A stretch of DNA of 64,000 nucleotides from Taiwanofungus camphoratus. Lineage: Eukaryota > Basidiomycota > Agaricomycetes > Polyporales > Taiwanofungaceae. Below, in pieces: positions 663-36,339 of this stretch; position 1 is the stretch's first letter; every line of letters begins with the position of its first letter. Under the pieces are notes generated by a model. The model ran no database searches. It was not told the origin of the DNA and was given only the letters and a program-made list of their open reading frames with translations. Made by a program: the position numbers and the translations under genes. The stretch is from positions 1,364,001-1,428,000 of the forward strand of contig CP021228.1 in assembly GCA_003999685.1 (NCBI GenBank), read 5' to 3'.

Positions 663-2893
663 CTGCTTCAGCAGATACTGACCATACTGGCAGTTGATGT
701 CATAAAGCAGGAGCATTCTGCCAATGTCCTTTGTGTTGTATCCAATGGCATTGAACAGGGAGTAGTCCATGTTCATCTGTCTCTCCCCCTTTTGAAAGTC
801 CACGACAGAGTGTGGCACAAAGCAGCCATGCTGAGGACAGGCAGTGGCTCCGATCCCGGTGGACTCCAGCTTGTGCTGGTCAGCATTGGCCAGGTCGACG
901 GCCTTGTGGTTGTGACAGATGCCCAGCTGTGCAATGGGAAAAAAGACACATGAGATCATGGGCATGGGGACCAGTGAGATGGGAATCTACCCCCTTGAGC
1001 TCCTTGGCCACCTGGAGATGGGCCTTGTACCTGCCATCGGCCACAAAGAAGCCAGTGCCGTCAGTGATCTCCACATTGTTCCTGGGCCTCCTCATCTTGA
1101 GATGCTCTGCAGAGAAGTTGCCATCCATCATGAACCCTTGGGTGTACACCAATCTGGACATGGTCAGACCGGGCACAGCCAGACTGGGCTCAGATCACTT
1201 ACTGGTCAGAATGTTCCTTCCAATCTGGGTCCAAATTGACTCCAGGTTGTGGGCAGGCAGCACAGAAAAAGGAAAGGTCACCATCTCCAGGCTGCTGTCT
1301 GGATGGGTATCCAAACCCATGTCACATGAGGTCCTTGAGATGAGACCACTGTCTGGTGACCCTGAGGAATTGCTGATACCGGTCCTTGATGATGGGGTAC
1401 CCCATGAGCATTGGCAACCTCCTGATGGGTGGCCACGGAATCACTCACCAGCACGGCTTGAGAGAGAATGGGATTGGTCACCCTTCTGAGCTGGCTGTAG
1501 AAGTTGAGGGTGGAGGTCTTGCATTTGAGGTTCTCCAGCAGGAAGTCATCAAGGACCTTGAAAGTGAAACAAGTTTTGATGTGCCTGTGGCTGGCAGAGT
1601 AGAGGCCCATGTCCAGCAGCTGGTCTTCATGACTGGGGGCATTCACACACCCACACCAGTGAATGGGAAGTTGGTGAATGCCAGAGGTATTGACCATGAC
1701 CATCATTTGATGGATGCTTCTGGTGTCAAATGCCACAAGGGCATGATGCCTGTCAATACTCTGAAGGCAGTCCCAATGTTGCATGAGGTATGCCCTGTGT
1801 CTCACTGATGGCACTGCTATCTTTACTGGTGGCACCAAGACCATACCGATGGCACCACACTTATCACTGCCAGCACTGCACCCATAGCCAACAGTGCCAT
1901 GACTATTCCTGTCAGTGCTGCAATCATTGCTGTCAGCACTGCAACCATTGCTGCCAGCACCACAACCATTGCTGCTGGTGCTGTGACTATTCCTGACAGT
2001 ACTGTGTTCATTCCTGACAGCACTGTTGATATCATTTTGTGGTAATTTCCAATTATCTGAGCTTGGAATGAGCACACACAAGATCCTGTCCTTGAGCACA
2101 TCCCTGAGGGCACCACTCACCCAGCACATCATCTGGCTCTGGGTTTGTGAAGACTGGAATGTCATCTGGCACCCTCTTCCAATACCCAGTCATCCTCAGC
2201 CTCTTCCTCATCAGAGAACATCCCATCCTGTCCATCCAGGGTCATAAGGCAGGCACTCCCCTTGTGGCCAAGCTGGATACATGCTCCCACATCCCATAAT
2301 CAAGCCAGGGTGAAGAAGGTGTTATGGGTCCATTTCTGGATCCTGTGGAATAGTAGCCTGGCATGTTCCAGTTTGCAGCACTCCATACAAAACATGGGTT
2401 TGGCCAGGCAGTCCAGACAGCGCCAGAGCGCCCCCTTCATGCTGCACCAGATGCAAGAATGACTGGAAGAAGAGTGTGATCATGGAGAGGGTTCTGTGTG
2501 GTGGGGGGCACCCTCATACATGTACAGTCTATTTAAATAATGCTCTTTGCTCTCTAGCCACTCCCTCATGAGATCAGGTTGAGACTGTATGAAAAATGTG
2601 AGCTGTGATGCCATTCCAGTCCCATTGGCTCAGACGATGCCCACCTGAGTGGATGGAAACACAGGCTGAGAAATATGATCCTCATAGACAGGTAGATCAT
2701 ATCCTGCATTGGCATGCCTGCTTGTTCTTGGAGTTTGGAGAGGGGTGCTCCTGGTAGGAGTGCTGGGCAAGGATGAGCCAGGCTTATCTTTGATCTGCAC
2801 CAACTGAGAAATCATGCCTCTGGAAGTCTTTTTCTGCTTCCATTTGGCCTCCTGGATGATGGAGGAGCTCAATCTTCTTTTTCTTTTTCCCAT
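663..2893 (-). pseudogene. KDZ-superfamily transposase remnant, N-terminal part
   Basis: Read on the minus strand from an ATG at 2891-2893, this resembles basidiomycete KDZ (Kyakuja-Dileera-Zisupton) transposases. A basic N-terminus (MGKRKRRLSSS) is followed by a PVFPSTQV-type segment. Near 2455-2290 there is a cysteine-rich CxC2-like block (CIWCSMKGALWRC, FCMECC, FHRIQKW, IQLGHKG). Near 1720-1450 comes NTSGIHQLPIHWCGC and FKVLDDFLLENLKCKTS, and near 860-740 the KDZ core HGCFVPHSVVDFQKGERQMN, then YDINCQYGQYLL. The frame is broken by several stops and shifts, expanded by a minisatellite (1806-2031), and ends at the LTR at 662, so the C-terminal part is missing. The family assignment is from motif memory. 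The gene is divergent from gene A, with 218 bp between their ATGs. Confidence 0.85.
1806..2031. repeat. 21-bp minisatellite inside the KDZ transposase remnant
   Basis: About ten degenerate units of the type gcagtgctggcagcaatggtt are visible (minus-strand reading). Because 21 is a multiple of three, the array adds a Ser/Asn/Gly/Cys repeat without shifting frame. The same unit recurs in genes A and C, after gene A, and in the 3.7-kb TIR element. Confidence 0.8.
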
Positions 2894-3111
2894 CAGGTTC
2901 ACCTGTTTTGTGGTGAAGAGTGGAAACACAGGAAAGGCACTCAAATATGTGTATTGAAGCTTGAGTGCAGATGCGTGCGAGTGCACATTTGTGTGACAAC
3001 AGGTGTGACCCATTGGGTTGGAGCGACTTTAGCAAAAGTGCGCAACAGCTGAAGTGCATCAAACTAGGGATCTGCCTTGCCTCACTGCTCTGCTGCTCAC
3101 TCACTTAAGCC
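2894..3111. promoter_or_regulatory. Short bidirectional intergenic region between the KDZ gene and gene A
   Basis: The ATG of the KDZ remnant (2893, minus) and that of gene A (3112, plus) are 218 bp apart and divergent, so this interval must hold both promoters if both genes were ever transcribed. I see no clear TATA box. The placement supports the two genes belonging to one element but is not proof. Confidence 0.45.
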
Positions 3112-5773
3112 ATGCCTGGGAACTCTATCCCTCAGACTCACAAGGATGCCATCAATGCTCTGTTCTCTGAGTGGAACCAGGCAGACAGAGCAGCCCGAGT
3201 GCAGTTCTTGCAGGATGTGTACGAGGATCTGGAGGAATTGGAGAACAGGAAGCTGACAGATGAGGAGAAAGAGGTGAGAGGTTCTGCTCTACATGACAGA
3301 GGACGTGCTCATGATCATCTCTATGCAGGCATTGAAGAAGTATGCCAGGAACAAGCAGGAGAAAAAGGCAGAGAGGAAAGAGTTTGATCCCAAATCATCA
3401 TACACCTGGAGGAGTGTGGTGGTGACCCATTGCAAGGAGGAACTGATGCACAGGATGGCCATTCCGACTGAGGGTGCCAAACCAGGCAGCCCTCAGTGGA
3501 TCACCCATTACCAGACCGTGAAAGCACAGTTGTGTGCTGCTGTGTCAGAAGAGCAGAAGGCTGCCTATGTGAGGGAAGCTGAGATATGGAACACAGAGGG
3601 AGCTCCAGCAGATGTCCAGATGGCCAGGGTGGAGAAGCATGGGGAGAAGGCAGTCAAGGAGTTTGCCCAGTATGTCTTCAAGATGATGGGCATGAGGGTG
3701 TATGTGCTGGGCGCGTACAGGGGAAAGAATGCCAAGATCTACACCACAGAGTGAGTGTGCAGTCCCCAATCATCCTCTCCTCTCTCACCTCCAAGCCCCA
3801 GTTTTGATTTCAATGACCAGTTGGATGGTGGGGACAAGGTGGAGGACAAGGTGGTGAACTGGAACTCAGAGGAGTATCTGAGGTTGTTCAAGAGATATGC
3901 AAACACCCAGTTTGGTGAGTGCCAGAGCCCATGTTGTTCACCATCCTGGTAGCCATTGACACCAGGACAGCACTGGAGCAAGAGGTTGATGGGGAGGAGG
4001 AGCCAAAGAAGAGGAAGAGGAATATGGAGCCAGCACTGGAGCTGGACACCACAGAGGATGGGGAGCCCCTTCTTCCATCTCAGGAGGTCATCTCAGCAGT
4101 GAGCCTGAATCAAAAGAAGCAGTTGATAGCACAGTTTGTGCACATGCATTATGGTACGTCCCCCATCCCTGTGGCCAAGCCACCAGGCTGACTGGCTGAT
4201 TGTCTGGGATGTCCCATAGTCAAGTGCTGTGGGATGCTGGAGGCGAAGGTGCCTTGGGGGGTGTTGCAGTCTGAGCAGGACAAATACATCTCAGCAGTGT
4301 ATATGCCAGAGGACATCACTCTGAAGGACTGCATCAAGATGATCCAGGCAGATGTGGACCGGCTTCTGAATTTTTGGTCTGACTGGCAGGATGACCCAGA
4401 GGTGGACCACACCTTCAAATTCAAGGCATGGAAGGGCAGGGACAAGGAACCTCAGCCACCGGTGAAGAGGGTCCCATCTTGGCCTAATCATCCCAAGCGG
4501 GCAGGCCGCAAGAACAAGGGCAAGGGAAAGGCGGTAACGCCACCTCACCCTGAAGATGAGGAGAACACCACTGAATCAGACAAAGACAGTAGCCATCACG
4601 ATGAGTCAAGTGACATAGAGAATGGGAATGAGCCGGGGCCTAGTGAACCACATCGGTCAGGTCACACACAAAGACCCAGAGTGGTGGGCAGAGGTAGAGC
4701 ACCACTCACAGGAGGTGCAGCAGCGGCAGGGCCAACGGGTGCAAGTGCAGCGCCGGCGGGTGCAAGTTCGGTGCCGGCAGGTGCAAGTTCGGTGCTGGCA
4801 GGCAGAGGTCGGCCCACTAGTAACCCTTTATCTCAACATACCCAATCACCATCACTGGCACATGCTGGAGGACAGCCAGTGGCCGGTCATGTGGAGGATG
4901 AAGGAAGCACATCAAGGACTCCTGCACCGGCCATACCCAGGAGCAAGTTCGAGTCACCGGCAACAGTCCAAGACAGTCCTGAGGCAAGACAGACCTATCT
5001 GCTCAGTCTGTCCCGACAGATGCCATATCGCAACTTCATCAAGACCATCCCCAAATTGGTGTGTGGTTGCTCTTTTCATATTCATCATGGCAGCCTAAAC
5101 ATTCCTTGCCCAGGCTCACATTATTGTTTCTGGCAATCGGTCTCATCAATGGGCCTGGGGGGAGTGGAAGTACACCTCCCCCCACTGTACTAGAGCCATC
5201 CACAGCAATATGGCCACAGGCTCCAAGTTCACTCAGTGGCTATCCTCAAAGCCCTATTACACCAGCAGGGGGGACAACTTTAAGCTGGACATGGTGAAGA
5301 CCCAGAACATGGCACTGGTGATTGGGCTCATGCTCAGGGACTTGGAGGAGGCCCAGGTGGCCAATGAAATGGAGGGTGAGCCCACTGACCTGCCTGACTA
5401 TGTTCTCAACTCAGTGCTCAGTGAGGACATGGTGGAAAATGTCCTGCTGCCTGCATGCAATGAGATGAGGGCAGGCACAGAGGCAGTGACAGAAGACACT
5501 GAGGTGATGGGGGACAGTTCCAGACTGACCAGATCAGGTTCAAAGCATCCCCAAGCACAGCCCAGTAAGTCTGGTGGACCTGATGTGCTACCTGTGCCAA
5601 AGAAGCATGTTGCTGGTCCAAAGGAGGGGAGCCAGAAGAGGAAAAAGAATGAGTTGGAGCCTGTGGAGGAGGAGGAGGAAATGGAATCATCATCTAGGAA
5701 GAAGGGGAAGGGGGTGCCTGGAAGACCCAAACCCAGGCCGGCCAACAGGGGTGGGAGGAGGACTGCGGCTTAG
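3112..5773 (+). CDS. Gene A: unknown nuclear-type protein with AT-hook-like tail, KDZ neighbour
   Basis: Six exons keep one open frame through five GT-AG introns: 3112-3273, 3329-3750, 3802-3914, 3953-4153, 4220-5058 and 5114-5773 (798 aa). Residues ~60-190 carry a helical block with VSEEQKAAYVREAEIWNTEG followed by a KHGEKAVKEFAQYVFK segment, which resembles an HMG-box-like pattern (inference). The middle is low-complexity, rich in Ala, Pro and Ser, with a short 21-bp minisatellite (4709-4805). The end is acidic then basic (KRKKNE, GRPKPRPANRGGRR, an AT-hook-like motif), suggesting nuclear DNA binding. I recognise the type as common hypothetical proteins of Agaricomycete repeats, but no function is known to me. 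The exon phases all agree, so the gene looks intact, unlike the transposase beside it. Confidence 0.75.
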
Positions 5774-5800
5774 GTTGCATTGAGAGGAGGAAGACCAGGG

Positions 5801-5936
5801 TTGCAGTACCGGCAGCAATGGGTGCAGTGCTGGTGGTGAGGGGTGCAGTGCCAGCGGCAAGGGGTGCGGCGCCGGCGGCGATGACTACGGTGCCGGCAGC
5901 GATGAGTGTGGCACCGGCAGCGATGGGTGCAGTGCT
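5801..5936. repeat. 21-bp minisatellite just after gene A
   Basis: About six tandem units of the form ggtgcagtgccggcagcgat begin 28 bp after the gene A stop. They match the arrays in gene C and in the KDZ remnant. Confidence 0.8.
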
Positions 5937-6079
5937 GAACCTGAGTGTTGTGGCACCAGTGGTGTTTCTGCCTTATTGTTTTCTGTTTTATGTTCACCCT
6001 GAGATAGCCTAGATGGAAATATATACACATAAAATTACTTGAAACCACTATGTAGAATGCTTGTACATGCAATGGTACA

Positions 6080-6946
6080 CTACTGTTCAAAGTCCATGAC
6101 ATCATCCTCATCATCCTCATCCCCATATCCACTCAACATTGCACTGACATCATCCCCTCCCTTCTCAGTGGACACCTCCATCACCTGTGACTGAGGCTGG
6201 GCACAAGCAGAGGTGGCAGCAGGAGTTTGACCGGGTCCTTGTACCTCAGGATATATCACCAGCACCCTATCGCCACTGACCGGTGCCGGATAGTAGATGA
6301 CCGGCGCTGCAAATGGGTGGACCGGTGCCGGATCCTGCAACAGTGGCACCGGGGCATCAGGAAGGGAGACCGGTGAGGCAGGGGATGGTGTGGGCGACAC
6401 GGAGGGTGCTGGATTGATGACAGGAGGTGAGTAGACCCTGCTTACCCTTCTCTCCATGTCTGGCAGGGAGAACCAGACCACTGGCTCCTGTTCCCGGTCA
6501 CTCAGACCGGTATTCATGTGAACCATTGCCGGATCACTTGCATCTGGTGCTGTGATGTACAGAGCCAGAGCCGGGGTCTCCTGAGGCAGAGCCAGGTCAT
6601 CCTGAGGCAGAGCCAGGTTGTCCTGGGGTGGAGCCGGATCATCCTGTGAAGGTGCCAGGTCGCCTCCGCTGATCTCCCAGTCCATCAGACCAGAATTGTG
6701 GTCCATTGGAACCTCTTCCTGAGGCCCGGTAGATGGCCCTATGAGTAAATGGGGATCAAGGTCAGACAGGGTGTGAATAAAGGAACAGGACCTACCTGGC
6801 AGGTTCAAGATGCCTGGTCCCACCAAGCCCTCCACTGCTGCCCTCAAAGTCTCCACCATGAGCTCCGTTGTGGCCAGTCGGCGGCGCAGGGCCAGATTCT
6901 CGTACTCGAGCAGCTCCACCCACCCTCCCAGATCCTCTGCAGGCAT
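6080..6946 (-). CDS. Gene B tail: coiled-coil plus Pro-rich acidic region (3' exons of gene B or a separate gene)
   Basis: Two exons (6946-6796 and 6738-6080) join in phase across a 57-nt intron to give 269 aa from MPAEDLGG. Residues 10-50 form a likely coiled coil (ELLEYENLALRRRLATTELM), followed by a Pro/Ala/Asp-rich region with repeated (L)ALPQDD units and an acidic end (DEDDEDDVMDFEQ). It lies 137 bp after the stop of gene B on the same strand. Zn-cluster proteins often carry a coiled coil behind the cysteines, so it may be the C-terminal part of gene B, but I could not find an in-phase splice joining them. Confidence 0.55.
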   Translation of the reverse strand: MPAEDLGGWVELLEYENLALRRRLATTELMVETLRAAVEGLVGPGILNLPGRSCSFIHTLSDLDPHLLIGPSTGPQEEVPMDHNSGLMDWEISGGDLAPSQDDPAPPQDNLALPQDDLALPQETPALALYITAPDASDPAMVHMNTGLSDREQEPVVWFSLPDMERRVSRVYSPPVINPAPSVSPTPSPASPVSLPDAPVPLLQDPAPVHPFAAPVIYYPAPVSGDRVLVIYPEVQGPGQTPAATSACAQPQSQVMEVSTEKGGDDVSAMLSGYGDEDDEDDVMDFEQ

Positions 6947-7083
6947 GTCCCACGGTCACACAAGTGTGTCGCCGAGCCGTGGCACATGAAGCGTCCGTGC
7001 CAGCGGGACCACAATGTCTACGTATGCCATATCTGGCCGTCAATGAGGAAGGATTGAAAACAATAAACAAAAAACGTACTACG

Positions 7084-8478
7084 TCACTTTGGTGGCATAG
7101 ATGCCACCGTCCCCTCTCCACCCGACCCAGATGGCTCATCAGTAGGAGGAGAAGGTGATCTCCTCCTTGAGACTGCTGTCTTCCCCGTCTTCGGCGCCAG
7201 AGTGCACTGCCCTGCCAGCTCCACAGCCTGTGCCCTCCTGGTCTTCTTGCCTGTTGAGGGCCGGCTGGAGGAGGCAGTGGCATTGGCCACTTTGGCAGTG
7301 ACTTGGCAGTGGCGTGTGGTGGGAGGTGGCTGGGTGCATTTTGCCTTCGCAAAATGGCACCTGTCACAGGCCGTGACCTTGCCTGTGGGCGGCCGGTCGG
7401 GGTGAGTAGAGATGATACATTCACCCGGCTCACACCGGGTGCATGGTGGGTCCTATGCCAACATCAGCTGAAACTGAGAGAAACATGGAGCAGTCACGCA
7501 CCATTGGCTGTGCCCATTCATCAGAGCACATCGCTCCGAGCCTTCGGGACGGCTTCTCCTGCTCGCTCGGCGCTGCAGACACCGACCATGACTGCGATCG
7601 TGCCCAGCTGCTCCTCCTCAGTGGCCGCCCCTGCTCATCCTCCGATGGAACCGGTGTCGTCTGCTTTAGGATCCCCTTCGGCTTGTGGGGTGTCCTGGGC
7701 AATGGGTGTGGCAGCGGGGAGGCAGTTGCTGGTCGCCAGGCCAGTTTCTTCTCCTCACAGCGCCGCCCTCCCTCAACCGGGCTCATCCCCTCCATCTCGA
7801 CGTCTTCCTCAACCATCCCCTCCTCCCAGCTCACATCATCCACCTCCACCCTCTGCGGCACCTCCACGGTTCTGTGGGACTTGTGCAGTGCCACAACCTC
7901 TGGTCCCATCCTCACCTTCTTCCTTCTCTGGGTCTCCTCCTCCACCTCAACCTCCACTGATGTCTCCCGGGTCCTCTTGGCACCTGCAACAGCTGGGGAA
8001 TGAAAAGAAGTCAGTGTAAGTTATGTAATCAACATGCAGCTACTCACCTTCTGCTTGCCACCAAGTGTCCTCCATACTCTCCTCCCCCACCTCTGACACA
8101 GCACCCTCCGGTGGCTTCGAGTACCAGGGGTTGGCCTTGACTTCCAGATCGTCGGCTGACATAACCTCCAATCGCACCGGCACACTGTGCTGAGCGGCAC
8201 ATGCAAACTCGCCTGCACCGCTTAGGATGATGGCAGGCACATACGGCCGCTCACCAGCAGTGGAGGCCATGATGAGGAGGTTCCAAAGGGGACACTGAAA
8301 TGGATGTGATTATAGTTAGCATGTAATTAGATAGTGGAAAACTTACCAGCTCCTGCTCCAACCTCTCCTCAAACCAGGTCCGGCGTGAATGGTTGGGGCC
8401 AGGCAAGTGAGAGAGGGCCAGACGCACCCGGTTTGCCATCAGATAGAGGCTTTCTTTCACGGAAAGAGTAGAGGACAT
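7084..8478 (-). CDS. Gene B: cysteine-cluster protein of unknown function
   Basis: Four exons (8478-8347, 8294-8048, 7992-7502 and 7452-7084) keep phase and give 412 aa. The N-terminus is helical (VKESLYLMANRVRLALSHLP). The middle is basic and acidic with a KRTRE and a RRKKVR nuclear-localisation-like patch. Splicing exon 3 to 4 (donor gtgcgtg after CCAATG) creates a cysteine cluster, CTRCEPGEC and then CDRCHFAKAKC, of the form C-x2-C-x4-C...C-x2-C-x6-C. The second half resembles a fungal Zn-cluster half site. A role in DNA binding is possible (inference). It lies convergent to gene A and divergent from gene C (250 bp apart). Many Agaricomycete repeats carry such genes, and gene D in this window is another cysteine-cluster gene of the same general layout. 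Confidence 0.65.
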
Positions 8479-8728
8479 ATTTAAAGCAGGTTTCGATAAT
8501 GAAATGCAGCTAGAAACGCGTGGAAGGGGAATGTCACAATGGTGATGTCAATGACCAATGGACGAATGACGGTGAAACAGATTGTGGGATGATCACGTGA
8601 TCGGCGCATTCAGACACATCATGTGACCGAAACTTACTGATGCCTGCCTGATTTCTCATGTTCAATCCCAGTTCTGTTTCTGCGCTGATCTTGAGCTTCA
8701 AATTCATCATTTCTGTGACCCATATACA

Positions 8729-11002
8729 ATGTCCAGCACATCCAAGAGTGAGTTTTTTCAATATTCCTCTATTTGTGATACCAATGGCCCTGTTACAGAC
8801 ACTCAATCCAAGGGAAAGGGCATCACCAGGCCTTCTCAGCCTCTGCAGGCACCCACCATCTCTCCCTCCTCATCTGATCGGCCCAGTGAGCACCAGGGGA
8901 CAGGACAGGATCTCTCCATGTGGAATTTGCCTCCACCACCCCCCAGAAGGGTGGCCCCAGAGATGGTCAGAGAAGGGACAGAAGGAGGGAGAGGCCAGGG
9001 AGGAAGGGAAGGGAGTAGGAGGGGCCCCTCACAGTCAGTTAATCCCAGTTCTGTTTCCTCCAGACAGTCCCCCAGGACCTCATCCCGACCTTGGGAGTGG
9101 ACTGTGCTTCCCCCTCCCCCCCCATCACCAGTCACCCGGAATCCATCCCGGGACACATCTGGACCACTGGACTGGACGCAGCTTCCTCCCCCACCTCTCC
9201 CATCAGCAGGCCACTCATCGATGGCACGGGCAGGGCCCTCACTCTCAACATCAGCTGGCCGGTCAGCCCAGCTGCCATCTCAACCACCTGACTGGACGAT
9301 GCTGCCACCACCGCCGGCATCCTCTGCAGGTAGATCCCGGCCTCCTCCATTTGAACAGCCATGGTGGACAACGCTACCACTGTCACCCCCATCCCAGTCA
9401 GGCCCATTGGCCTGGGCTGCATCACAAGTGCCGGAGTGGACCCAGCTGCCTCCCCCCCCTCCGGCATCGGCCAGACCGCCACTGGGTGCGGTGCCTGTGG
9501 GTCGTGCACTGGCGCCATCGAGAAGCAAAGGAGGTGCAGCACCGGCGATGGGTGCAGCGCCGACGGCGATGGGTGCAGCGCTGACGGCGATAGGTGCAGC
9601 GCTGGCGGCGATGGGTGCGGTGCTGGCGGCGATGAGTACAGTGCCAACGGTGAGGGGTGCGGTGCTGGTGGCGATGAGTGTAGTGCCAATGGTGAGGGGT
9701 GCAGTGCCGGCAGCGATGGGTGCGGTGCTGGCGGTGATGAGTACGGTGCCAATGGCGATGAGTACGGCACCGGCAGCGATGACTACAGCGCCGGTGGCAA
9801 GGGGTGCGGCGCCAGTGGTGAGAGGTGTGGTGCCGGTGGTGAGGGGTTCAGTGGTGAGGAATATGGCGCTTGCGGTGATGAATGCAGTGCAGGGGGCAAG
9901 AGGTGTGGGACTGGAGATGGGAGGTGTGGCAGCGGGGGCAAGGGATGCAGTGGCAGGGGCAAGAGGTGCAGCCTCAGGGAGTGGGCAGGATGTCCCTGCA
10001 TTCCTCATTGATGAGGTGGTGGACATTGCCCTGCTCTCAGAAAATGTGCGGAGATATTGTGAGTCCCGTGTCATTCCACCTGGCTGTATGGTATCCAGCA
10101 TCTATGGGACCATCATTGATGTCAGAAGTCCCACCCGGCCTCATTGTGCCCTGTCTGCCTTTGAGAAGCAAAGGCATCAGATCTTTGGGCCACAGCCAAC
10201 ACGCATGGTTGCCCCAGGTGGGAAGGGAGATATGGCTGTGAGAAGAAGGGAGTTTTTGGCTGATGAGAAGTTTGTGGCTGTGGGTATGCATCCCATTGAT
10301 AGGAGACCACGCCGATCAGCTCCTCCCTCTTCTTCCTCTGATGGTGGGTCTTCTGGGGATGGGTCTGGCAGTGGGTATGGCAGTCAGGGGGATAGCAGGG
10401 GAGGGGATGAAAAGGATGACAGTGATGAGGATGAGGATGAGGAGGAGGAGGAGGAGGAGGAGGAGGAGGAGGGGGAAGGGCAGGGGGAGGGGGGGGAGCA
10501 AGGCCAGGGGGAGGGGGAAGAGCAAGGCCAGGAGGATGTCATAGAGTTCAGCTCTGATGATCACCCACAGCAGTGGGCAGAGCAGATGGAGATAGATGAG
10601 GGGCATGGTCAGGTAGGTATGCCTTGCTCTCCTTTTCTTGTGTTTCAAATTGATATGTGGACATGTACAGGCAGATTTCACAGCACAGGCAGCAGAGGGA
10701 CAAGGGGAAGGGGCAGACCCCAGTGATGATGGTGAGTTCTCAATCATGGTTCTCTCATCCAAATCCTGCCTTTGTGTTCACCCATTGTTTATGTAGAATC
10801 TGTTTTTTCTGCAGACTTGTTGAGATGGGCTGATGAGCACACTGAGACTCAAGCTGCTGCTCAGTTGGTATATGCTTATCAGCATCTCAGGGTGGAGCAG
10901 GTCAAATCTGCTGATTCATTGCAAAGGCTGACTGACATGAGGGACTTCAATGCCTTGGAGGTGGATTTTGTAGCACATGTACTAGAAAGGTACAAAATGT
11001 AA
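8729..11002 (+). CDS. Gene C: repetitive protein with W-x-x-L-PPPP repeats and acidic tract
   Basis: Four exons are likely: 8729-8747, 8799-10612, 10671-10731 and 10815-11002 (693 aa). The 51-nt first intron is in frame and could be retained. Residues ~40-250 hold about six copies of a (D/E)WTxLPPPP motif (MWNLPPPPP, WEWTVLPPPPP, LDWTQLPPPP, PDWTMLPPPP, PEWTQLPPPPP). Then follow about 20 units of a 7-residue Ala/Met/Val repeat encoded by the 21-bp minisatellite. A non-repetitive block (VRRYCESRVIPPGCMVSSIYG) comes next, then a Ser/Gly stretch, a Glu tract (10441-10470) and a helical C-terminus (LLRWADEHTETQAAAQL). No domain is recognised. The open frame through all this repeat suggests it was under selection until recently. 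Confidence 0.65.
9530..9985. repeat. 21-bp minisatellite inside gene C
   Basis: More than 20 units of the type ggtgcagcgccgacggcgat, each 21 bp, encode (A/V)MGAAP-like heptapeptides in the gene C frame. This is the longest array of the family in the window. Confidence 0.9.
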
Positions 11003-11120
11003 CCATATCTACATTCCTGTTCTTGGAACTTCATGTATATCTGAACATGGCTGTAATTTATCAAAGCTTTACCCAACAGTGAGGCCTTCATTTAGGCATC
11101 AGACTTGACCTGGCTGCTGC

Positions 11121-11666
11121 TGTTACGGGGGTGTCTATGCCCATAAGCGACTACTAGTGATGGTGAGTCATTAAGTAGTCAAGCGTGTATGCGAGGAATC
11201 AGCCTGGCTGATGACGAGTATACACCTAAGTCTTCAACCACTAGCCCAATGGTCTCGAGAGAGTTGCAGGCTATGTCGCGTCGTCTAGCTCCAAGTGTAG
11301 TCACAAGAGAGTAGATGGTCTGAGAAGACCCGTTGAATAGACGAAGGTATATACAAAGTACAAGGACAATGACGGTGTCCAAGTACATGGTGAGGCTAAG
11401 GCTACCGAAGTGTAACCTATGGTGACTAGTAACGAAGGTAATAAACAAGGTAGGAAACAAGAGGACAAGATTGGGGTACTCCGCAGTGAGTCAACCCCTT
11501 AAGTACTACGGTGGGCTTAGGGCAAGTCGGCCCTCACCCCACAGGTATCAGTACCTACTAAGTGTCCTTGAGTCAGAGGCCCGGATGGCCCCCTCTGAGT
11601 AACGGTCCATAACTAAGCAGGGACGGACAGCCCGTCTGGAATGGTGGTGGTAATCATAAGTGTACA
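11121..11666. repeat. Candidate solo LTR, 546 bp
   Basis: The block starts tgttacgggg and ends gtgtaca, so it has TG...CA ends with a short imperfect inverted repeat; read on the minus strand the end cccccgtaaca is typical of gypsy LTRs. It contains no gene. I could not find a target-site duplication (flanks gctgc and tgacc), so the boundaries and nature are tentative. Confidence 0.35.
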
Positions 11667-11808
11667 TGACCCACTAGTCCGTGAAGTAAGGAGAAAAATG
11701 AAATGTACACCCACACCTGTATCGCCTTGTAACAGCTGCAAGGGCCAGGGGGCATCCCTGGAAATAAGGAATGGCTGGCTGACCCATTGCAACAGGATGG
11801 GTCCATTG
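11667..11808. repeat. Left fragment of the subterminal palindrome array
   Basis: From about 11771 the sequence (ggctggctgacccattgcaa) matches the subterminal arrays at 19831-20123 and in the 3.7-kb TIR element. It was separated from 19831-20123 by insertion of Gypsy-1, whose 5-bp target duplication cattg is at 11804-11808. The preceding 100 bp are unassigned. Confidence 0.7.
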
Positions 11809-12284
11809 TGAAACAATTTCTATTTCTTATCATTACCACGGTCATTGCTTATTCATGGACTATTACTGTACGGGCCCCGGATCGGCCCCGCTTACGCATA
11901 GGACTCTGACTCATATCCGGGCCGCTTACCACATTCCTCATCACTCATACGTATTGCTAATACGCCCGGATCGTACCACTTCGCATTTATCTATAGTCGT
12001 ACCACATTACGGACCTCCTGCCCTAGAGTAGTTCTTGGTCCGTGCTCACGATACGTACTTGTATATATAGCATGTACTTAGTTTAGCTCAGACCTTAAGT
12101 CTGATCTGGTTACCATTATATTCGTGTCTTGTATCCTCTCGCTCACATCTGAGTGATACTCGCTCGAGTCTACGGACTTCACGACACTCGGTCTATATCG
12201 ACCATAAGACCTCGCCACCTTCTATCGTGGTCAGGCCCTCACGTGTGAGGCAACATATAGGATCCGAGATACCAATTTGTATCA
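11809..12284 (+). repeat. Gypsy-1 5' LTR
   Basis: The LTR is 476 bp, starting tgaaacaatt and ending tttgtatca. A TATA box (tatatata, 12062-12069) lies 34 nt before taagtctgatct (12096-12107), the place where transcription would be expected to start. Confidence 0.95.
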
Positions 12285-12286
12285 AA

Positions 12287-12298
12287 AGATCAGACTTA
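12287..12298 (+). promoter_or_regulatory. Gypsy-1 primer-binding site, self-priming type
   Basis: Two bases after the 5' LTR, agatcagactta is the exact reverse complement of taagtctgatct (12096-12107), about 34 nt after the LTR TATA box. In Tf1 the 5' end of the mRNA folds back on the primer-binding site in this way. I see no tRNA 3'-end complement here. Confidence 0.65.
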
Positions 12299-12431
12299 CG
12301 CTAAGCCGCCCCTAGTACCATCTAGCGGGCATACATCCATTACCACGTCTTACCTCAGGACCGTCGATCCTGACTATTGGGGGTTACCTTCAAGGGGAGA
12401 GGAACCACTTCTCTACGACATCGAACAACGA

Positions 12432-13763
12432 GTGTTCGTAGACGTGAACCGGAACCCGATCTATCCGAGTTCACCGCTTACCTGGATTAGAACAACATCC
12501 AGACGACCCATCCAACAAGCACAGGCCAACCTCGCTACTTACTTCCAGCGAAACCCTGTCGACCAAGGAAAGGATATTGCTATCCTATTCACGGGAGGAT
12601 CACAGGAATCCACGCCCATTGAACCAACCACCGGGGACACGTTCACCGCCTCGACTTCTCGAACACCCACACCCACTCCATCCTCTTCCTCATCCACTCC
12701 TATAATATCCGCACCCACACCTCGACGAGTCACGATGGCAACAATTGGGAACATGACACAACAGCAGCTGGAGGCACTCATCGCTCGCCTCCAGACCCAG
12801 CAGCAAGGAGCTCGAGCCCTCAAGCTCGACATTCCTGCGCCGGACCCCTTCACCGGGCAAGGGGAAGATCTGGATCGGTTCATCCAGCGGGTGGAGCATT
12901 ACTTCACCGCCACGAATAACACCAACCTCAGCGACGACGCAAAGATCGCATTCACAGTTGCCCTCATGAAGGGAGGACAGGACGCGCGCATATGGCGCGA
13001 CACGTTCTACGAACGAGCAGCGGGGGGTCAAGCACCTTACAGGACATGGGACCTGTTCAAGGGATCTCTCAAGTTGGCATTCCCCGAACACGAGGGGGTG
13101 CCGCGAGCACATCAGGTGCTCATGGAGTTGCCAGCCAAACAACTCAACAAGAAAACGAGGGCCACTACCAAGATGTATGTGGAGAGATTCCGACTTCTGG
13201 CCGAAAAGGTGAAGTTAAAGGACGCGACCATCGATGCGAACGGACAGCGCACCGAGAACGACTACCCTACCCTCAGGGCGATATTCATCAAGGGGCTGGA
13301 TCGCCAGATCTACGCCACCTTAGCTGGAAGGGCCACATCCGAGAGGCCAGACACCATGGACAAATGGTACAGGGACGTCCTATCCTTGGACGCTATCTAC
13401 AGGGGGATCGACCAAATCTCCAACGTAACCACTTCGGTCGACTATGGCGAACCTATGGACGTAGACGCCGTCGCCACTCGCCCAGCCCGCGCCTCTCCAC
13501 CCTCCTCTAACCGGAAGCAGTGGACGGATGGTTGCCCCTTGAGCGAAAGCGAAAGGAAATACCACCGCAACAATAACCTCTGTTTCTACTGCCATAACAG
13601 GGGACACTCGGCACGCGACTGTCGCAAGAAGGCGGCAGCCGGAACGAGGAGCACGCCCAAGGCGCAGGACTCGCGCCCCACGGACTATCGCTCTTACATC
13701 AAGAGCTTGTCGGCCGACGAAAAGAGAGAGGTCATGGAAGAATTGGCCACGGAGGATTTTTAA
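12432..13763 (+). CDS. gag: Gypsy-1 gag
   Basis: The 443-aa frame has a Ser/Pro/Thr-rich start, a retrotransposon gag region (FTGQGEDLDRFIQRVEHYF; MKGGQDARIWRDTF) and one CCHC zinc knuckle (CFYCHNRGHSARDC) near residue 375. Translation may begin at the internal ATG 12735 (MATIGNMTQQQ), which precedes the conserved part. Confidence 0.9.
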   Translation: MFVDVNRNPIYPSSPLTWIRTTSRRPIQQAQANLATYFQRNPVDQGKDIAILFTGGSQESTPIEPTTGDTFTASTSRTPTPTPSSSSSTPIISAPTPRRVTMATIGNMTQQQLEALIARLQTQQQGARALKLDIPAPDPFTGQGEDLDRFIQRVEHYFTATNNTNLSDDAKIAFTVALMKGGQDARIWRDTFYERAAGGQAPYRTWDLFKGSLKLAFPEHEGVPRAHQVLMELPAKQLNKKTRATTKMYVERFRLLAEKVKLKDATIDANGQRTENDYPTLRAIFIKGLDRQIYATLAGRATSERPDTMDKWYRDVLSLDAIYRGIDQISNVTTSVDYGEPMDVDAVATRPARASPPSSNRKQWTDGCPLSESERKYHRNNNLCFYCHNRGHSARDCRKKAAAGTRSTPKAQDSRPTDYRSYIKSLSADEKREVMEELATEDF

Positions 13764-13807
13764 AGGGGCAGGGTGAGTCGACGCAACCACTGCCCGTTTC
13801 AGTTTCA

Positions 13808-14221
13808 TTGTCCCGTGTTGTACTAGTAGTCAGGAATGAAAGGGCTTTACACATTCCAATTACTGTGGGACGGAAAGACGTCGAAACACGCGCCTTCATC
13901 GACAGCGGCGCCTCAGGGATATTCGTACACCCCAAATTCGTCAAGGAACACAACATTCGCACCGAGGCTCTACCACGCCCCATGCCTGTGTTCAACGTGG
14001 ACGGGACGGCTAACAAACAAGCTGTCATCACAAAGAGGGCCCTTCTTTCGTACAAAGTAGGAGGGGAGCCCCGATTCGTTAAAGCCTATGTAGCCAGCAT
14101 AGGAAAGGAAGATATCATCTTCGGGCATACCTGGCTAAAATTGGAAAATCCGGACATTGACTGGAAGACAGGACGGGTGGAGCTTAAACACCGCATGACC
14201 CTGGAGGAATCTAGGGAATGA
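13808..14221 (+). CDS. Gypsy-1 protease
   Basis: The 137-aa frame contains the aspartic protease site FIDSGASGIFVHPKF and the downstream region IIFGHTWLKLENPDIDW that is typical of gypsy proteases. It sits between gag and the RT frame, as the family requires. Confidence 0.85.
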   Translation: MSRVVLVVRNERALHIPITVGRKDVETRAFIDSGASGIFVHPKFVKEHNIRTEALPRPMPVFNVDGTANKQAVITKRALLSYKVGGEPRFVKAYVASIGKEDIIFGHTWLKLENPDIDWKTGRVELKHRMTLEESRE

Positions 14222-14233
14222 AAGAAGAACCTG

Positions 14234-17200
14234 TTGGAGACCAGAGCCAAACAACTGGAAATCAAGAGATTAACGGCAGAATCCCTCTCCAGGGAAATCA
14301 TTAAAGCCCGTCAACCCTCAGTCGAAGAAGTAGAGGACGAAGGAGATGGGGACGTCATGGACACCATGTCCCCAGTCTTGCCAACTACGGAAACCCATCG
14401 TCAAACGGCTCACCGAGACTCGCCAGTCTCAACCCCGGAAGAAAGCTCGGTAAACGGTATCACACTCGAACAGGCCATGGAAACGATCGACGATGACGAG
14501 CTGGTCATAGCATTCGTCGAAGGAGACGATCGGATCACAACGTACGGGCGGGATTCATACCCCGCGTATCGAGACACCTCGCTCAAGGAAAAGGAGTACC
14601 CTCTCGACGGGGCGTATCGTCGTCTCGAAAATGGTCTTATCTGGCAGGTCAAACATGACATCGGTCGACTCACCACGTCTACGGAACTCGCTATTAAGGA
14701 ACACGCCAAGAAAGAGGAGAAACCGGTCACGGAACTCGTTCCTGAGTACCTCCACGACCTCCTTCCGGTATTTGACAAACAAGCGGCAGCTCGACTCCCT
14801 AAGCACACGGAACACGACCATGAGATCAACCTGAAGGAAGATTTCAAGGAATTCAAGCAGTCCACTTATTCGCTCAACAGAGAGGAAAGAGAGGAGTTGG
14901 ATAAGTTCCTGGAAGAAAACCTCCAGAAAGGCTATATTCGTCCGTCGAAATCACCATTGGCCAGTCCATTCTTCTTTGTAGAAAAGAAAGATGGAGGATA
15001 TCGGCCTTGCCAAGATTATCGAGAACTCAACGAGGGAACTGTCAAAGATCGCTACCCACTCCCTCTTATATCGGAACTCTTGGAACGGCTAAACAAGGCG
15101 ACCATCTTCACCAAGATGGATCTCAGGCAAGGGTACAACAATATACGAATTCGAGAAGGAGACGAATGGAAGGCGGCCTTCGGTGTCCCAGCAGCTGGGG
15201 AAGGACCTCCCTCGTTCTACGAACCCCTGGTAATGTTCTTCGGGATGTGCAACTCACCGGCGACGTTTCAACGGATGATGAACACGGTCTTCGCGGACAT
15301 GCTCAAGGAAGGGTGGTTGGCAATTTACATGGACGACATCCTCATCTACTCAACAGACCCCGAGGAGCATAGGAAACGAACGCGGCGAGTTATCGAAAGG
15401 CTCAAGGATACCGACTTGTATCTCAAACCGGAAAAGTGCAAATTCAACGTACAAGAAGTCGAATTCCTGGGCATGATCATCAGACCCGGACAACTCGCCA
15501 TAGACCCGGTTAAGGTAGCAGGCATCAAAGATTGGCCGACACCCAAGAATCTCAGAGAGGTCAGGTCGTTCGTCGGGTTTGGGAACTTCTACCGTCGATT
15601 CATACATCGATTCTCGCACCTGGCCCAACCACTGGTTTCGCTCACGCGAAAAGATGTCAAATGGCATTGGGACGACGAACAGCAGGAAGCCTTCGAGGCA
15701 CTAAAGAAGGCCTTCCTGGAACAACCGGTATTACAAATGCCTGACCCAGAGAAACCGTTCGCATTGGAAACAGATGCATCGAAGTTTGCCACGGGCGCTG
15801 TCCTAAGACAAAAGGATGACAATGGGGATTGGCATCCATGCGGTTATATCTCTCAGAGCATGACGCCAGCGGAACGAAACTACGACGTCTACGATCGAGA
15901 ACTTATGGCAGTCATGAGGGGACTCAATGAATGGAGCCACCTCCTCATCGGAAGCCCGTACCCGGTCACGATCTACAGCGATCACAAGAACCTGACTTAC
16001 TGGAAGACGGCACGGAATCTAAATCGAAGACAAGCACGATGGGCTCTCCGCCTATCCGAATTCGATTACAAGCTGGTTCACGTCCCGGGAACACAAATGG
16101 TACAAAGCGACGCACTCTCCCGACGCCCCGACCACGATGACGGATCATCAGACAACCAGGGAATAACTATCCTACCTGATAAAGTATGGGTAGCGGCAAT
16201 CGACACGGGCCTAAGAACCTCCATCCGGAAGGCAGGTGTAAATGACCCAGTATATAAAGAAGGCCTAAACAACGCACAAAACGGCTCAGACGATCATTGG
16301 ACAGTCCAAGACGGAGAACTACTCTATGACAACCGAGTGTATATTCCCCTGGATGAGAACCTACGACGGCAAACGGTCTCAAATTACCATGATCTTCCAC
16401 ATGCAGGTCACCCCGGAATTGTCAAAACTCTGGCATCTCTGCGACGAGACTATTGGTGGCCCGGAATGGCCGATTTCGTCGCCCGGTATGTTCACGGCTG
16501 TGGCACGTGTCAACAAATGAAGGTTAACACTCACCCAGACTGCCCCGCCCTTGTCCCTATCCGAGCCGCCGCTCACGCTACACCGTTCAGCACGTTCTGT
16601 TGCGACTTCATTACGGATCTACCCCTTTCCAACGGCTACGATTCAATTTTGGTCGTAGTGGACCACGACCTTAGTAAGGGGGTAATTTTCATTCCATGCA
16701 ACAAAACCATTGACGCACAAGGAACGGCGGAGCTTCTTTACAACGAGGTCTACAAATGGTTTGGACTCCCAGACAAGGTGATCAGTGATCGCGGACCGCA
16801 ATTCGCATCAAAGGTGTTCCAGGAGCTATGCCGTATAACAGGAGTGCAGTCCGCCATGAGCACGGCTTTCCACCCTCAGACGGATGGAGAAACGGAACAG
16901 GTCAATCAAGAACTCGAAGTATACCTTCAGTGTTTCACAAGCAACAATCCGGATAGGTGGTCTTCCTTACTTGGCACGGCACAATTCGCTCACAACTCCA
17001 GGGAACACTCGACGATCAAGGCGTCGCCATTTAAAGTCATAATGGGCTTCGAACCACGAGGAATCCCAGTCGTACACAAGGGATCAGACACACCCGGCGC
17101 AGCTTATCGTCTAAAGAATCTCCAGAAGATAAGGGATCAAGCACACGCGGCAATGGAGCTAGCCCAGGCGGTATTGGCAAAGCGGATCAAACCACGAGGG

Positions 17201-17644
17201 AAAGGTTTTCGCAAAGGACAACAGGTTTGGCTCGACTCTCGGAATCTAAAGCTGCCATACCCCTCTAGGAAGTTGGCACCCAAGAGAGAGGGACCCTTCG
17301 AAATCGTTGAAGTCCTAGGTCCGGTCTCGTACAAGCTAAAGCTTCCGGAGACATGGCGGGTACATCCGGTCTTCCACGCCACCCTTCTATCACCTTACAC
17401 GGAGACGGAGATCCATGGCCAGAACTACACGAGGCCACCCCCGGAGCTTATCGAAGGCGAAGATAACTACGAAGTCGAAGCCATCATCGGACATCGGGAG
17501 AATCGACGGACAAGACGCCGCGAGTACAGGGTCAGGTGGAAAGGATATTCCTCGGCTGATGACTCATGGGAACCGGAAGCGAACTTAGCCGGTACTGCGA
17601 AGGAGCTCCTGGCAGCGTATAAGGAGCGAAAGAACTTGGGCTAA
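14234..17644 (+). CDS. pol: Gypsy-1 pol: RT, RNase H, integrase, chromodomain
   Basis: The 1136-aa frame reads, in order: reverse transcriptase (TKMDLRQGYNNIRI, catalytic YMDDILIYS), RNase H (LETDASKFATGAVLRQ, YDRELMAV), integrase zinc domain (HAGHPGIVKTL, CGTCQQMK), integrase core (CCDFITDLP, ISDRGPQFASKVF, HPQTDGETEQVNQE) and a C-terminal chromodomain (YEVEAIIGHR, YRVRWKGYSSADDSWEP). The chromodomain marks it as a chromovirus. Such domains are thought to steer integration to particular chromatin. Confidence 0.95.
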   Translation: METRAKQLEIKRLTAESLSREIIKARQPSVEEVEDEGDGDVMDTMSPVLPTTETHRQTAHRDSPVSTPEESSVNGITLEQAMETIDDDELVIAFVEGDDRITTYGRDSYPAYRDTSLKEKEYPLDGAYRRLENGLIWQVKHDIGRLTTSTELAIKEHAKKEEKPVTELVPEYLHDLLPVFDKQAAARLPKHTEHDHEINLKEDFKEFKQSTYSLNREEREELDKFLEENLQKGYIRPSKSPLASPFFFVEKKDGGYRPCQDYRELNEGTVKDRYPLPLISELLERLNKATIFTKMDLRQGYNNIRIREGDEWKAAFGVPAAGEGPPSFYEPLVMFFGMCNSPATFQRMMNTVFADMLKEGWLAIYMDDILIYSTDPEEHRKRTRRVIERLKDTDLYLKPEKCKFNVQEVEFLGMIIRPGQLAIDPVKVAGIKDWPTPKNLREVRSFVGFGNFYRRFIHRFSHLAQPLVSLTRKDVKWHWDDEQQEAFEALKKAFLEQPVLQMPDPEKPFALETDASKFATGAVLRQKDDNGDWHPCGYISQSMTPAERNYDVYDRELMAVMRGLNEWSHLLIGSPYPVTIYSDHKNLTYWKTARNLNRRQARWALRLSEFDYKLVHVPGTQMVQSDALSRRPDHDDGSSDNQGITILPDKVWVAAIDTGLRTSIRKAGVNDPVYKEGLNNAQNGSDDHWTVQDGELLYDNRVYIPLDENLRRQTVSNYHDLPHAGHPGIVKTLASLRRDYWWPGMADFVARYVHGCGTCQQMKVNTHPDCPALVPIRAAAHATPFSTFCCDFITDLPLSNGYDSILVVVDHDLSKGVIFIPCNKTIDAQGTAELLYNEVYKWFGLPDKVISDRGPQFASKVFQELCRITGVQSAMSTAFHPQTDGETEQVNQELEVYLQCFTSNNPDRWSSLLGTAQFAHNSREHSTIKASPFKVIMGFEPRGIPVVHKGSDTPGAAYRLKNLQKIRDQAHAAMELAQAVLAKRIKPRGKGFRKGQQVWLDSRNLKLPYPSRKLAPKREGPFEIVEVLGPVSYKLKLPETWRVHPVFHATLLSPYTETEIHGQNYTRPPPELIEGEDNYEVEAIIGHRENRRTRRREYRVRWKGYSSADDSWEPEANLAGTAKELLAAYKERKNLG
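16666..16686 (+). promoter_or_regulatory. Candidate central polypurine tract of Gypsy-1
   Basis: Twenty-one bases inside the integrase core coding sequence (containing ccttagtaagggggtaa) are identical to 19335-19355, which spans the 3' polypurine tract and the first base of the 3' LTR. They encode part of DLSKGVIF. Confidence 0.55.
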
Positions 17645-17689
17645 GACCAGTTCACTCCTTCAGACGAACTACCCCACCCCATTAGCAAC

Positions 17690-18958
17690 ATGCCTCGCCA
17701 GTCTAACACCGCTGCCCAAGCTGCCGCTCGTGGCCGAGCCCGCGCCTTCCTTGCCAGTCGACGTGCTACCCGCACACCTCAAACGACCGCATCCCCTACG
17801 GCAATACCATCCTCGTCATCAGCGTCCTCGGCATCCTCTGGCTATGGCCCCCTCTTTGGACTTCCAACCGCCGCCCAGTTCCGCAACCCCGTACCGGGAG
17901 AAGGCGCTCTACCTCGACAAGCCGACGTCTTATACTACCCTCGTTGGATCTATGACGTAGACCCCATCCTTCTCGACGTCATGACACGACACTCGAGGGA
18001 CTTCGCACAGTTGCTTTGTTCCATGCCAAATACTCGGAACAACCAAGACGAGCAAGAAGCATACGGGGAGTATATCGACGCCAGGTTGCAGTACTTGGGA
18101 GCGGTAGACGACGCTACAGAACAGCTGGCCATATGGAAGAATAAGATCCGGCAGTTGGATTTCAAGGTGGTCCGCACCTTACTCAGGATGGACAACATGT
18201 CCATGGCCCACCACCTGCAAGACATGATCCCCCCACACCGACGAACCGACCATCACCGGTTCATGCGACGCTCCCAACCCGACATCGTCACACGTGGACC
18301 TACTCCACCGCCTGAACCCGTGAACCCCCCTCCAAACCTTTATCGACACCCCAGCCGGATCGACTCTCTCCCTAATTACATGCGCCCAGGACCCAACTGG
18401 AGACCACGAGGGCGCTGTCACGCCTGCGGTAGCATGATGCACTGGGTACGTGACTGCCCAGACTATACCTGTGCCAGGTGCCATCGCACTGCTCCGGGAC
18501 ATCTATCCAGAGAGTGCACGGTAGCACGCCACGCCTCCGCCCCGCCCATCCTGCCCGCCCCAGGAGAGGATCGTCGCCGCGAGTTGGTCGACTCGATACA
18601 TCGCCCCACGCAGGCACCCATCCCCGTCATGTCCGCCACCAACCCCCCCCGCGTCCTTATGTCCAGAAGGGAGCAACCCCTTCCCCCTACCCCATCCCGC
18701 TCTCGAAGCAACGGGCCGCCCGCCCCTCATACCAATGCAACAGCCGGTCCATCGCGGACTGATACGCCTTACCCTCACACGCGCACACCCGGGCCATCAC
18801 TCAACCATTTGTCCGGACCGGGTGTACCGCCCAATCAACACCTCGCAGAACCCGGGTCCACCCGCCTTCCCCATCGAGCTATCACGTCCCCCATGTCGTT
18901 TCTCCACCACCTGTTTATCGCCGCGGGAATTACCACCCGCCCACGAACTCCTACATGA
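17690..18958 (+). CDS. Gypsy-1 third ORF with paired zinc knuckles
   Basis: The 422-aa frame starts 46 bp after the pol stop (MPRQSNTAAQAAARGR). It has a basic Ser/Ala-rich start, a helical middle (DATEQLAIWKNKIRQLDFKV) and, near residues 245-280, two zinc-knuckle-like units (CHACGSMMHWVRDC and CARCHRTAPGHLSREC), then a long Pro-rich tail. A separate nucleic-acid-binding protein 3' of pol is unusual for gypsy elements. Its role is unknown; nucleocapsid-like or RNA-chaperone activity is a guess. Confidence 0.75.
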   Translation: MPRQSNTAAQAAARGRARAFLASRRATRTPQTTASPTAIPSSSSASSASSGYGPLFGLPTAAQFRNPVPGEGALPRQADVLYYPRWIYDVDPILLDVMTRHSRDFAQLLCSMPNTRNNQDEQEAYGEYIDARLQYLGAVDDATEQLAIWKNKIRQLDFKVVRTLLRMDNMSMAHHLQDMIPPHRRTDHHRFMRRSQPDIVTRGPTPPPEPVNPPPNLYRHPSRIDSLPNYMRPGPNWRPRGRCHACGSMMHWVRDCPDYTCARCHRTAPGHLSRECTVARHASAPPILPAPGEDRRRELVDSIHRPTQAPIPVMSATNPPRVLMSRREQPLPPTPSRSRSNGPPAPHTNATAGPSRTDTPYPHTRTPGPSLNHLSGPGVPPNQHLAEPGSTRLPHRAITSPMSFLHHLFIAAGITTRPRTPT

Positions 18959-19334
18959 ATGACAATGAATGGGACGACTACGAGTTCAAATTGTACGGTG
19001 ATGGCGAGCAATGAAAGGGATTGCTTGCCGGAGGCGGCTAGTTGCAACTCGGCGAGAAGTATTAACGCTGAGCCACATGCTAGCAGGGTACAGTGGAGTT
19101 ACACTGTACGGTGATGGTGAACAGTAGGGGTGCTGTTTGCTTGAGGCGGTAGGTTGCAAGCGGTCCTGACCCGGTCGCCCACATGCCTACAGGTATGAGA
19201 TGAAACACTCTCAGGGTTCGAGGTGAAACACCCTCACGGAACGAGGTGAAACACCCTCATGGTACGCAGTGAAACACCCGCACGGCTGATGAACATTTTA
19301 TTTAACGGAAAATAAAGTAGGGTCGTTTGGAGAT
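18959..19334 (+). repeat. Gypsy-1 3' non-coding repeat region
   Basis: There are two diverged copies of a ~58-bp unit starting gtacggtgatgg (about 18994 and 19107), each with a ttgc...ggcgg.tagttgcaa-type core. Then four 23-bp units of gaggtgaaacaccctcacgg type run from 19197 to 19288. There is no gene. The region could be structured RNA or a packaging or termination signal. Confidence 0.7.
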
Positions 19335-19342
19335 CGACCTTA

Positions 19343-19354
19343 GTAAGGGGGTAA
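19343..19354 (+). promoter_or_regulatory. Gypsy-1 3' polypurine tract
   Basis: The tract agtaagggggtaa ends exactly where the 3' LTR begins (tgaaac at 19355), the position required for plus-strand priming. Confidence 0.8.
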
Positions 19355-19830
19355 TGAAACAATTTCTATTTCTTATCATTACCACGGTCATTGCTTATTC
19401 ATGGACTATTACTGTATGGGCCCCGGATCGGCCCCGCTTACGCATAGGACTCTGACTCATATCCGGGCCGCTTATCACATTCCTCATCACTCATACGTAT
19501 TGCTAATACGCCCGGATCGTACCACTTCGCATTTATCTATAGTCGTACCACATTACGGACCTCCTGCCCTAGAGTAGTTCTTGGTCCGTGCTCACGATAC
19601 GTACTTGTATATATAGCATGTACTTAGTTTAGCTCAGACCTTAAGTCTGATCTGGTTACCATTATATTCGTGTCTTGTATCCTCTCGCTCACATCTGAGT
19701 GATACTCGCTCGAGTCTACGGACTTCACGACACTCGGTCTATATCGACCATAAGACCTCGCCACCTTCTATCGTGGTCAGGCCCTCACGTGTGAGGCAAC
19801 ATATAGGATCCGAGATACCAATTTGTATCA
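19355..19830 (+). repeat. Gypsy-1 3' LTR
   Basis: The 476 bp are nearly identical to the 5' LTR and are followed by the target duplication cattg at 19831-19835. Confidence 0.95.
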
Positions 19831-20123
19831 CATTGCTGGCCAACCCGTTACAACGGGTAGGTCCCATTGCCGGCCGACCCGTTACAACGGGTAGGTCCCA
19901 TCACTGGCCAACCCATTACAACGGGTAGGTCCCATCGCCAGCCGACCTGTTGCAATGGGTAGGTCCCATCACCAGCCGACCCGTTGCAATGGGAATACAT
20001 TCACACCTGGCCGACCCATTGCAATGGGGCTTGTTTCAATGGTCGGCCGACGTCAGACAGCCCATTCACAATGGGCCAAACTCAGTGTTTATTGGCCCGT
20101 TGCAACGGGGTTTTTCACTGGAT
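19831..20123. repeat. Subterminal palindrome array and right end of the proposed KDZ element
   Basis: Units of ~30 bp contain the palindrome cccgttgcaacggg and ggccgaccc. They lead to a terminal segment (from about 20030) that closely matches the right end of the 3.7-kb TIR element: cttgtttcaa.ggtcggccga, then actcagtgtttattggccc, then gggttttt.actggat. The terminal actggat at 20117-20123 is the last base shared by the two copies, so I place the element end here. Confidence 0.65.
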
Positions 20124-20147
20124 GGGCTCTGTCTTGAAAGGGCCTGA

Positions 20148-23858: not shown

Positions 23859-23907
23859 ACCCGGAACCAGGGGAGGTTTCAGTTAGCTCATCGAAAGAAC
23901 GCTTCAT

Positions 23908-36335: not shown

Positions 36336-36339
36336 TCAT

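Follow-up and report, generated by a model that had tools for sequence, protein, structure and literature searches.

Does the KDZ-type feature in this stretch of Taiwanofungus camphoratus DNA (the window, 64,000 nucleotides, C9:1364001-1428000 of a 33.2-Mb, 15-contig genome) represent a whole transposon with three cargo genes, or one part of something larger? The first-pass annotation had taken positions 663-20123 as a complete unit. Comparison with other copies in the genome showed that the feature is a left-truncated copy of a larger element, with later insertions. We are highly confident that this larger element is a ~17.7-kb KDZ DNA transposon bearing a TET/JBP dioxygenase gene.

The window copy is bounded on the left by an LTR end (1-662) that lies outside the element, in a KDZ exon, and belongs to a ~11-kb retrotransposon (C9:1353660-1364662). 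It is followed by the 5' part of a KDZ+CxC2 transposase gene (663-2893, minus strand), which has stops and a frameshift relative to a copy on C12; the PF18758 (KDZ) match here, at C9:1364657-1364917 (window 657-917, minus strand), includes one TGA. Gene A (3112-5773, plus strand; exons 3112-3273, 3329-3750, 3802-3914, 3971-4153, 4220-5058 and 5114-5773) gives a 792-aa model that is AT-hook-like by eye only. Gene B (6080-8478, minus strand), for a cysteine-cluster protein, and gene C (8729-11002, plus strand), which contains 21-bp repeats and codes for a proline-rich, repetitive protein with an acidic run, have uncertain exon models. The order and strands of these four genes were as first annotated, and the 21-bp minisatellite said to be common to them was mapped at seven window sites (1905-1974, 4738-4802, 5802-5935, 6277-6333, 6562-6646, 9533-9853 and 9935-9979). 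Further right are a solo LTR (11121-11734; TSD GCTGC), a small part of the right-hand palindrome array (11740-11803, plus strand), an LTR retrotransposon (11809-19830; TSD CATTG; LTRs 99.6% alike) and the terminal array on the right (19836-20128, plus strand), which is built of 34-bp palindromic units and ends in ACTGGATGGGCT. The first-pass annotation had recognized all of these later insertions, the LTR at 1-662 included, but it closed the solo LTR at 11666 instead of 11734, and comparison with other copies moves the right end of the element from 20123 to 20128. With the insertions removed, the remnant (663-11120, 11740-11803 and 19836-20128) comes to ~10.8 kb. This is close to the first estimate of ~10.9 kb, but it is the size of a truncated copy rather than of a whole unit. 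With at most 2 mismatches allowed, the window has 21 occurrences of the palindrome CCCGTTGCAACGGG, compared to 0.13 expected from shuffles; 8 of these are in the feature copy and 13 in a separate element at 35169-38824.

When set against ten regions fetched from elsewhere in the genome, the window copy was found to lack the TET gene, a further gene (D), the left end and the remainder of the transposase. These parts were probably lost by recombination between LTRs, and autonomous movement of this copy would no longer be possible. Next to the ~11-kb retrotransposon lies another LTR fragment of its kind. The two junctions of the retrotransposon have no matching duplication, and the missing left part was not found among the best candidates from a search of the nearby part of C9.

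In the ten fetched regions, the element extends leftward through the rest of the transposase to gene D on the plus strand and a TET/JBP gene. The full order, TET/JBP dioxygenase (+), D (+), KDZ+CxC2 transposase (-), A (+), B (-) and C (+), or its mirror, was found at seven loci in the genome. An eighth locus, on C13, has five of the genes and a weak trace of B (58% identity, E=0.0125). TET adjoins D and KDZ at 8 loci. The copy at C11:843727-870657 is 26.9 kb long and ~17.7 kb after removal of an LTR element and a 1.8-kb insert, a size that includes 2.2 kb (843746-846000) left unread. The span first annotated is short of a left end and two genes, and the main cargo was missed with them: better-preserved copies also carry the dioxygenase and gene D. 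A single truncated copy can conceal such cargo. Stops and frameshifts are common among the copies. Two of the six-gene loci, C9:1186k-1206k and C9:1268k-1289k, form a segmental duplication (98.6-98.7% alike, flank 97.6%); the duplicated segments, C9:1178k-1218k (L015-L018) and C9:1260k-1300k (L011-L014), are ~84 kb apart.

Searches of the same genome at the DNA level gave 17 matches to window 2000-3500 (the 5' part of the transposase and the start of A), 25 to gene A, 18 to gene B and 48 to gene C, many of the last being to minisatellite only. Ten of the 25 A matches, including that of the window itself, covered at least 85% of the probe, and transposase coding sequence lay within ~2 kb of all ten. 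Matches to A, B and C were then clustered with KDZ, Tet_JBP, D and the end signature in a locus table, which has D boundaries set by hand and omits C hits weaker than E=1e-90 as well as a short A hit at C5:1735539. Clusters without KDZ, TET and D made up 7 of the 17 with A, 5 of the 13 with B and 6 of the 15 with C. C7:722k and C7:963k among them keep transposase coding sequence; the remainder are partial copies or fragments. Homologues of A, B or C away from KDZ genes had been named at the outset as evidence against a single unit. In this genome, the long A matches provide no such case, and the places where A, B or C stands without KDZ, TET or D are partial copies or fragments.

The termini of the copies fall into two classes, a left-class end, CACACAATCCAGT, and a right-class end, ACTGGATGGGCT, and inward of both are arrays of a 34-bp unit containing CCCGTTGCAACGGG. 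The end signature had 38 matches in the genome and none in a reversed-pattern control. In inverted order, the left array at C11:1405k is 78% like the right array of the C11:870k copy over 361 bp. The target duplication that the first-pass annotation had suggested seeking was present at all four places that combine a left-class with a right-class end. The octamers next to the two ends agree at 8/8 positions on C12 (TGTCCTTC/TGTCCTTC) and C13 (CAATATCC/CAATATCC), and at 7/8 and 6/8 positions at C5:1860588-1864570 (AGTCAACA/TGTCAACA) and C11:843727 (TAAATAGG/TAAACAGC), while mismatched pairings of octamers (n=12) share at most 4/8. A duplication of 8 bp is the best fit (8/8 at two of the four places). 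All 8 ends having GGGCT continue with a pyrimidine (a ninth end, at C5:2581k, has GGGCC), and this base may belong to the element, so a 7-bp duplication is possible. Where both sides have left-class ends, no target duplication was found; there are three such places, namely window 35169-38824, C3:1365k-1372k and the six-gene copy at C11:1373k-1405k. A left-class end also closes the C9:1267k and C5:1853k copies on the right. The end structure is thus not uniform, with two kinds of right side. Beyond TET, a left-end match was found at 5 of the 8 TET-D-KDZ loci (C11 twice, C12 twice and C13) and none at C5:1679k or at the two C9 copies. At C5:1508060-1521335 (L055, L056) and at C4:2510563 and 2531183 (L035, L036), the sequence flanking one of the paired ends is the reverse complement of that flanking the other; these are inverted duplications, not insertions. 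Overall, the copies were shown to repeat one unit in which the gene order is fixed and the ends are inverted palindrome arrays, with target duplications where the two ends are of different classes. The original proposal of one mobile unit for the transposase, A, B and C is upheld by their collinearity at many loci in this genome, together with the common ends and the duplications.

Genes A, B, C and D were found only on the element in the T. camphoratus genome. When parts of A, D and B were compared with the genome at the protein level, matches lay only where element DNA is present, with a single exception for B at C5:1737809 (E=0.63). An alternative is that A-D are host genes or independent repeats that happen to lie beside KDZ in repeat-rich, perhaps centromeric, regions, and that the unit is only apparent, a segmental duplication of one neighborhood. 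The concentration of copies on few contigs, the duplicated pair on C9 and the end pairs that are inverted duplications would fit this explanation. However, the copies on C5, C9, C11, C12 and C13 share order and ends and differ in their flanks and target octamers, and no separate whole A, B or D was found in the genome. We regard this alternative as very improbable.

The gene models come from a simple program. Gene A matched one database protein (P0001) with 88% identity over 98%. Searches with the whole A protein (7991 most-word-sharing candidates scored) and with residues 95-250 (213 candidates, E<=10) returned two T. camphoratus proteins only and no homologue outside the species at the word-based sensitivity used. 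Missing fungal records are an unlikely cause of this isolation, since a search of that database with the transposase core found 435 matches, and those listed (120) are mostly from Agaricomycetes. A and D had no Pfam hit, nor did gene C over 8729-10723, and no hit above the cut-off came from pieces of the four genes. B has C-x2-C pairs, with Zn_clus below the cut-off only, and D is represented by 366- and 392-aa models with repetitive tails and no domain. The AlphaFold prediction for A, made with two sequences, had a mean pLDDT of 36.3 and was unusable. The best PDB sequence match to a stretch of A (O43_129_+4 component B, 35 residues, E 0.0048) was not regarded as meaningful.

Selection on the genes was examined by comparing pN/pS between copies with 200 neutral simulations having the same substitution and CpG bias, with pairs below 80% identity dropped. 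Raw pN/pS values mislead here because neutral simulation with this bias gives 0.60-0.74. Gene A (0.445 compared to 0.605, sd 0.040, 20 pairs), the transposase (0.438 compared to 0.600, sd 0.043, 25 pairs) and gene D (0.367 compared to 0.638, sd 0.108, 8 pairs) were below 200/200 simulations, although these spreads are too small because the pairs share a reference and are not independent. With the same caution on the spreads, gene B (0.568 compared to 0.650, sd 0.043, 19 pairs), gene C (0.641 compared to 0.738, sd 0.065, 8 pairs) and TET (0.433 compared to 0.640, sd 0.211, 4 pairs) were 1.9, 1.5 and one sd under the mean, respectively, and not under all simulations. A, D and the transposase are, therefore, constrained beyond the neutral simulation, whereas B, C and TET are not clearly so.

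B and C also come in two divergent types. In comparisons with window 6080-9500, a second type of B, 71-73% alike, is at C9:1187k, C9:1271k, C5:1690k and C7:735k, and a second type of the first part of C, 80-81% alike, is at both C9 loci and C7:735k. Both C9 copies with divergent B/C are 93% like the window in A and 98-99% in the transposase start. Two B/C types on otherwise similar elements point to modular exchange between element types. These types, and the lack of clear constraint on B and C among similar copies, would also be expected if the core element were TET, D and the transposase, with A, B and C as passive hitch-hikers or captured cargo that have no role. We consider this rather unlikely, given that A is constrained like the transposase and that the order of A, B and C is kept at all seven six-gene loci. 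Between types, B has a dN/dS of 0.30-0.40 in the long blocks B1 and B2, a value calculated across indels and without a matched simulation, which likewise argues against a passive role.

The transposase model of the C12 copy matched both KDZ (PF18758, 1.3e-44) and CxC2 (PF18803, 6.4e-25), and all 15 PF18758 matches in the genome were over the cut-off. Among the matches listed, its nearest relatives are from Amylocystis lapponica (55-59%), followed by Fomitopsis, Rhodofomes, Suillus and Sparassis. In Sparassis crispa, two predictions (P0014 and P0041) have CxC2, KDZ and Tet_JBP within one gene model, suggesting that KDZ-CxC2 and Tet_JBP genes are neighbors in that species too. In T. camphoratus, 8 of the 11 Tet_JBP matches are within copies having KDZ. 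The three others (C9:1174152, C9:1249997 and C5:1787246) have internal stops and lie beside D fragments or an end. The TET protein aligned with CcTet at 1.5e-19 and keeps the iron-binding H-x-D, the distal H and the R; by alignment reading, it has Asp at the CcTET Asp337 position and Ala at the Gly331 position. The catalytic exon is open in three fetched copies.

Among fungal cargo transposons, the best known is Starship, whose captain is a tyrosine recombinase. KDZ, the transposase type seen here, was reportedly defined by Iyer et al. in 2014. TET-bearing KDZ transposons have already been described (Kojima 2025, PMC12730594), and the element in the window is of this known kind. According to the available text of that paper, TET+ Kyakuja is the sole TET+ lineage reported from Polyporales (section 3.2) and combines a KDZ transposase with a CcTET-related TET/JBP protein, as does our element. 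It is quite possible, if short of probable, that the element represents nothing more than a TET+ Kyakuja family known from the literature, and the kept Asp337 position agrees with this. However, the Laccaria Kyakuja families are given there as having 7-bp TSDs, CA..TG ends and no TIRs, whereas our element has TIR arrays in inverted order, ends of the form CACACAATCC..GGATGGGCT (CA on the left and GGGCT on the right) and an 8-bp best fit. The Gly331 position, Ala here, is Gly or Ser in the same text, which in its available parts makes no mention of four further genes for TET+ Kyakuja. Zisupton and Dileera share a KDZ transposase and 8-bp TSDs with our element, and Zisupton also has TIRs, as does our element. 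These features are not unique to Zisupton; TET+ Zisupton is reported in that text from Auriculariales and Agaricales only, whereas this element is from Polyporales (PMC12730594). The KDZ1-KDZ3 elements of Cryptococcus neoformans, 9-11 kb in length and with demonstrated movement, resemble ours in having TIRs (139-241 bp) and TSDs of 8 bp (4-8 bp in KDZ2 and KDZ3); they carry CxC1 where ours has CxC2, and the accessible portion of the report names no TET or other cargo (PMC12810828). TET+ IS3EU and PHISTA of rust fungi also place TET and an extra gene (an alpha-kinase or an unnamed third protein) beside the transposase, but they belong to other transposase superfamilies and have other TSD lengths, as far as the available text goes (PMC12730594). 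The main text of the T. camphoratus genome paper, as available, has no occurrence of KDZ (PMC8865532). No description of the six-gene form with palindrome-array TIRs and an 8-bp duplication was found in searches of open-licence literature, and the family table of PMC12730594 may list the family. What looks new are the four extra element-only genes, the palindrome-array inverted repeats and the 8-bp duplication (7 possible).

The base composition of the element bears on what its TET gene might do. Between copies, there were 2744 transitions and 635 transversions, and CpG sites differed five times as often as other sites (0.347 compared to 0.067). CpG observed/expected is 0.34 in window 3001-11120 compared to 0.83 in 20125-26000. 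Such decay fits past cytosine methylation, a pressure that a TET gene would counter, and fungal transposon TET genes are thought, in the available text of PMC12730594, to counter methylation silencing. We infer that the transposase would bind the terminal palindrome arrays and move the unit by an 8-bp staggered cut, while TET would oxidize 5-methylcytosine on the element, thereby countering its silencing. A and D, and B and C less surely, may serve the element and not the host. More speculatively, and with considerable doubt, we suggest that the element brings its own multi-protein set for anti-silencing and mobility and manages its own methylation, with A and D, and perhaps B and C, recruiting TET or the transposase to the arrays. 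The copies of this family are numerous within one small genome, their ends can be read, CpG decay has left a strong signature, and two of the four extra element-only genes are constrained like the transposase. Therefore, the idea that a transposon brings along partners of its demethylase can be put to the test.

Two neighbors of the feature in the window were also noted. The separate element at 35169-38824 is a non-autonomous relative of 3.6 kb that has a left-class end at each side, and its 21-bp and 180-bp tandem repeats are mirrored, forming a large inverted repeat. To the right of the window copy, a multi-exon gene lies on the minus strand at 21152-23860 and is, by eye, possibly of protein-kinase type.
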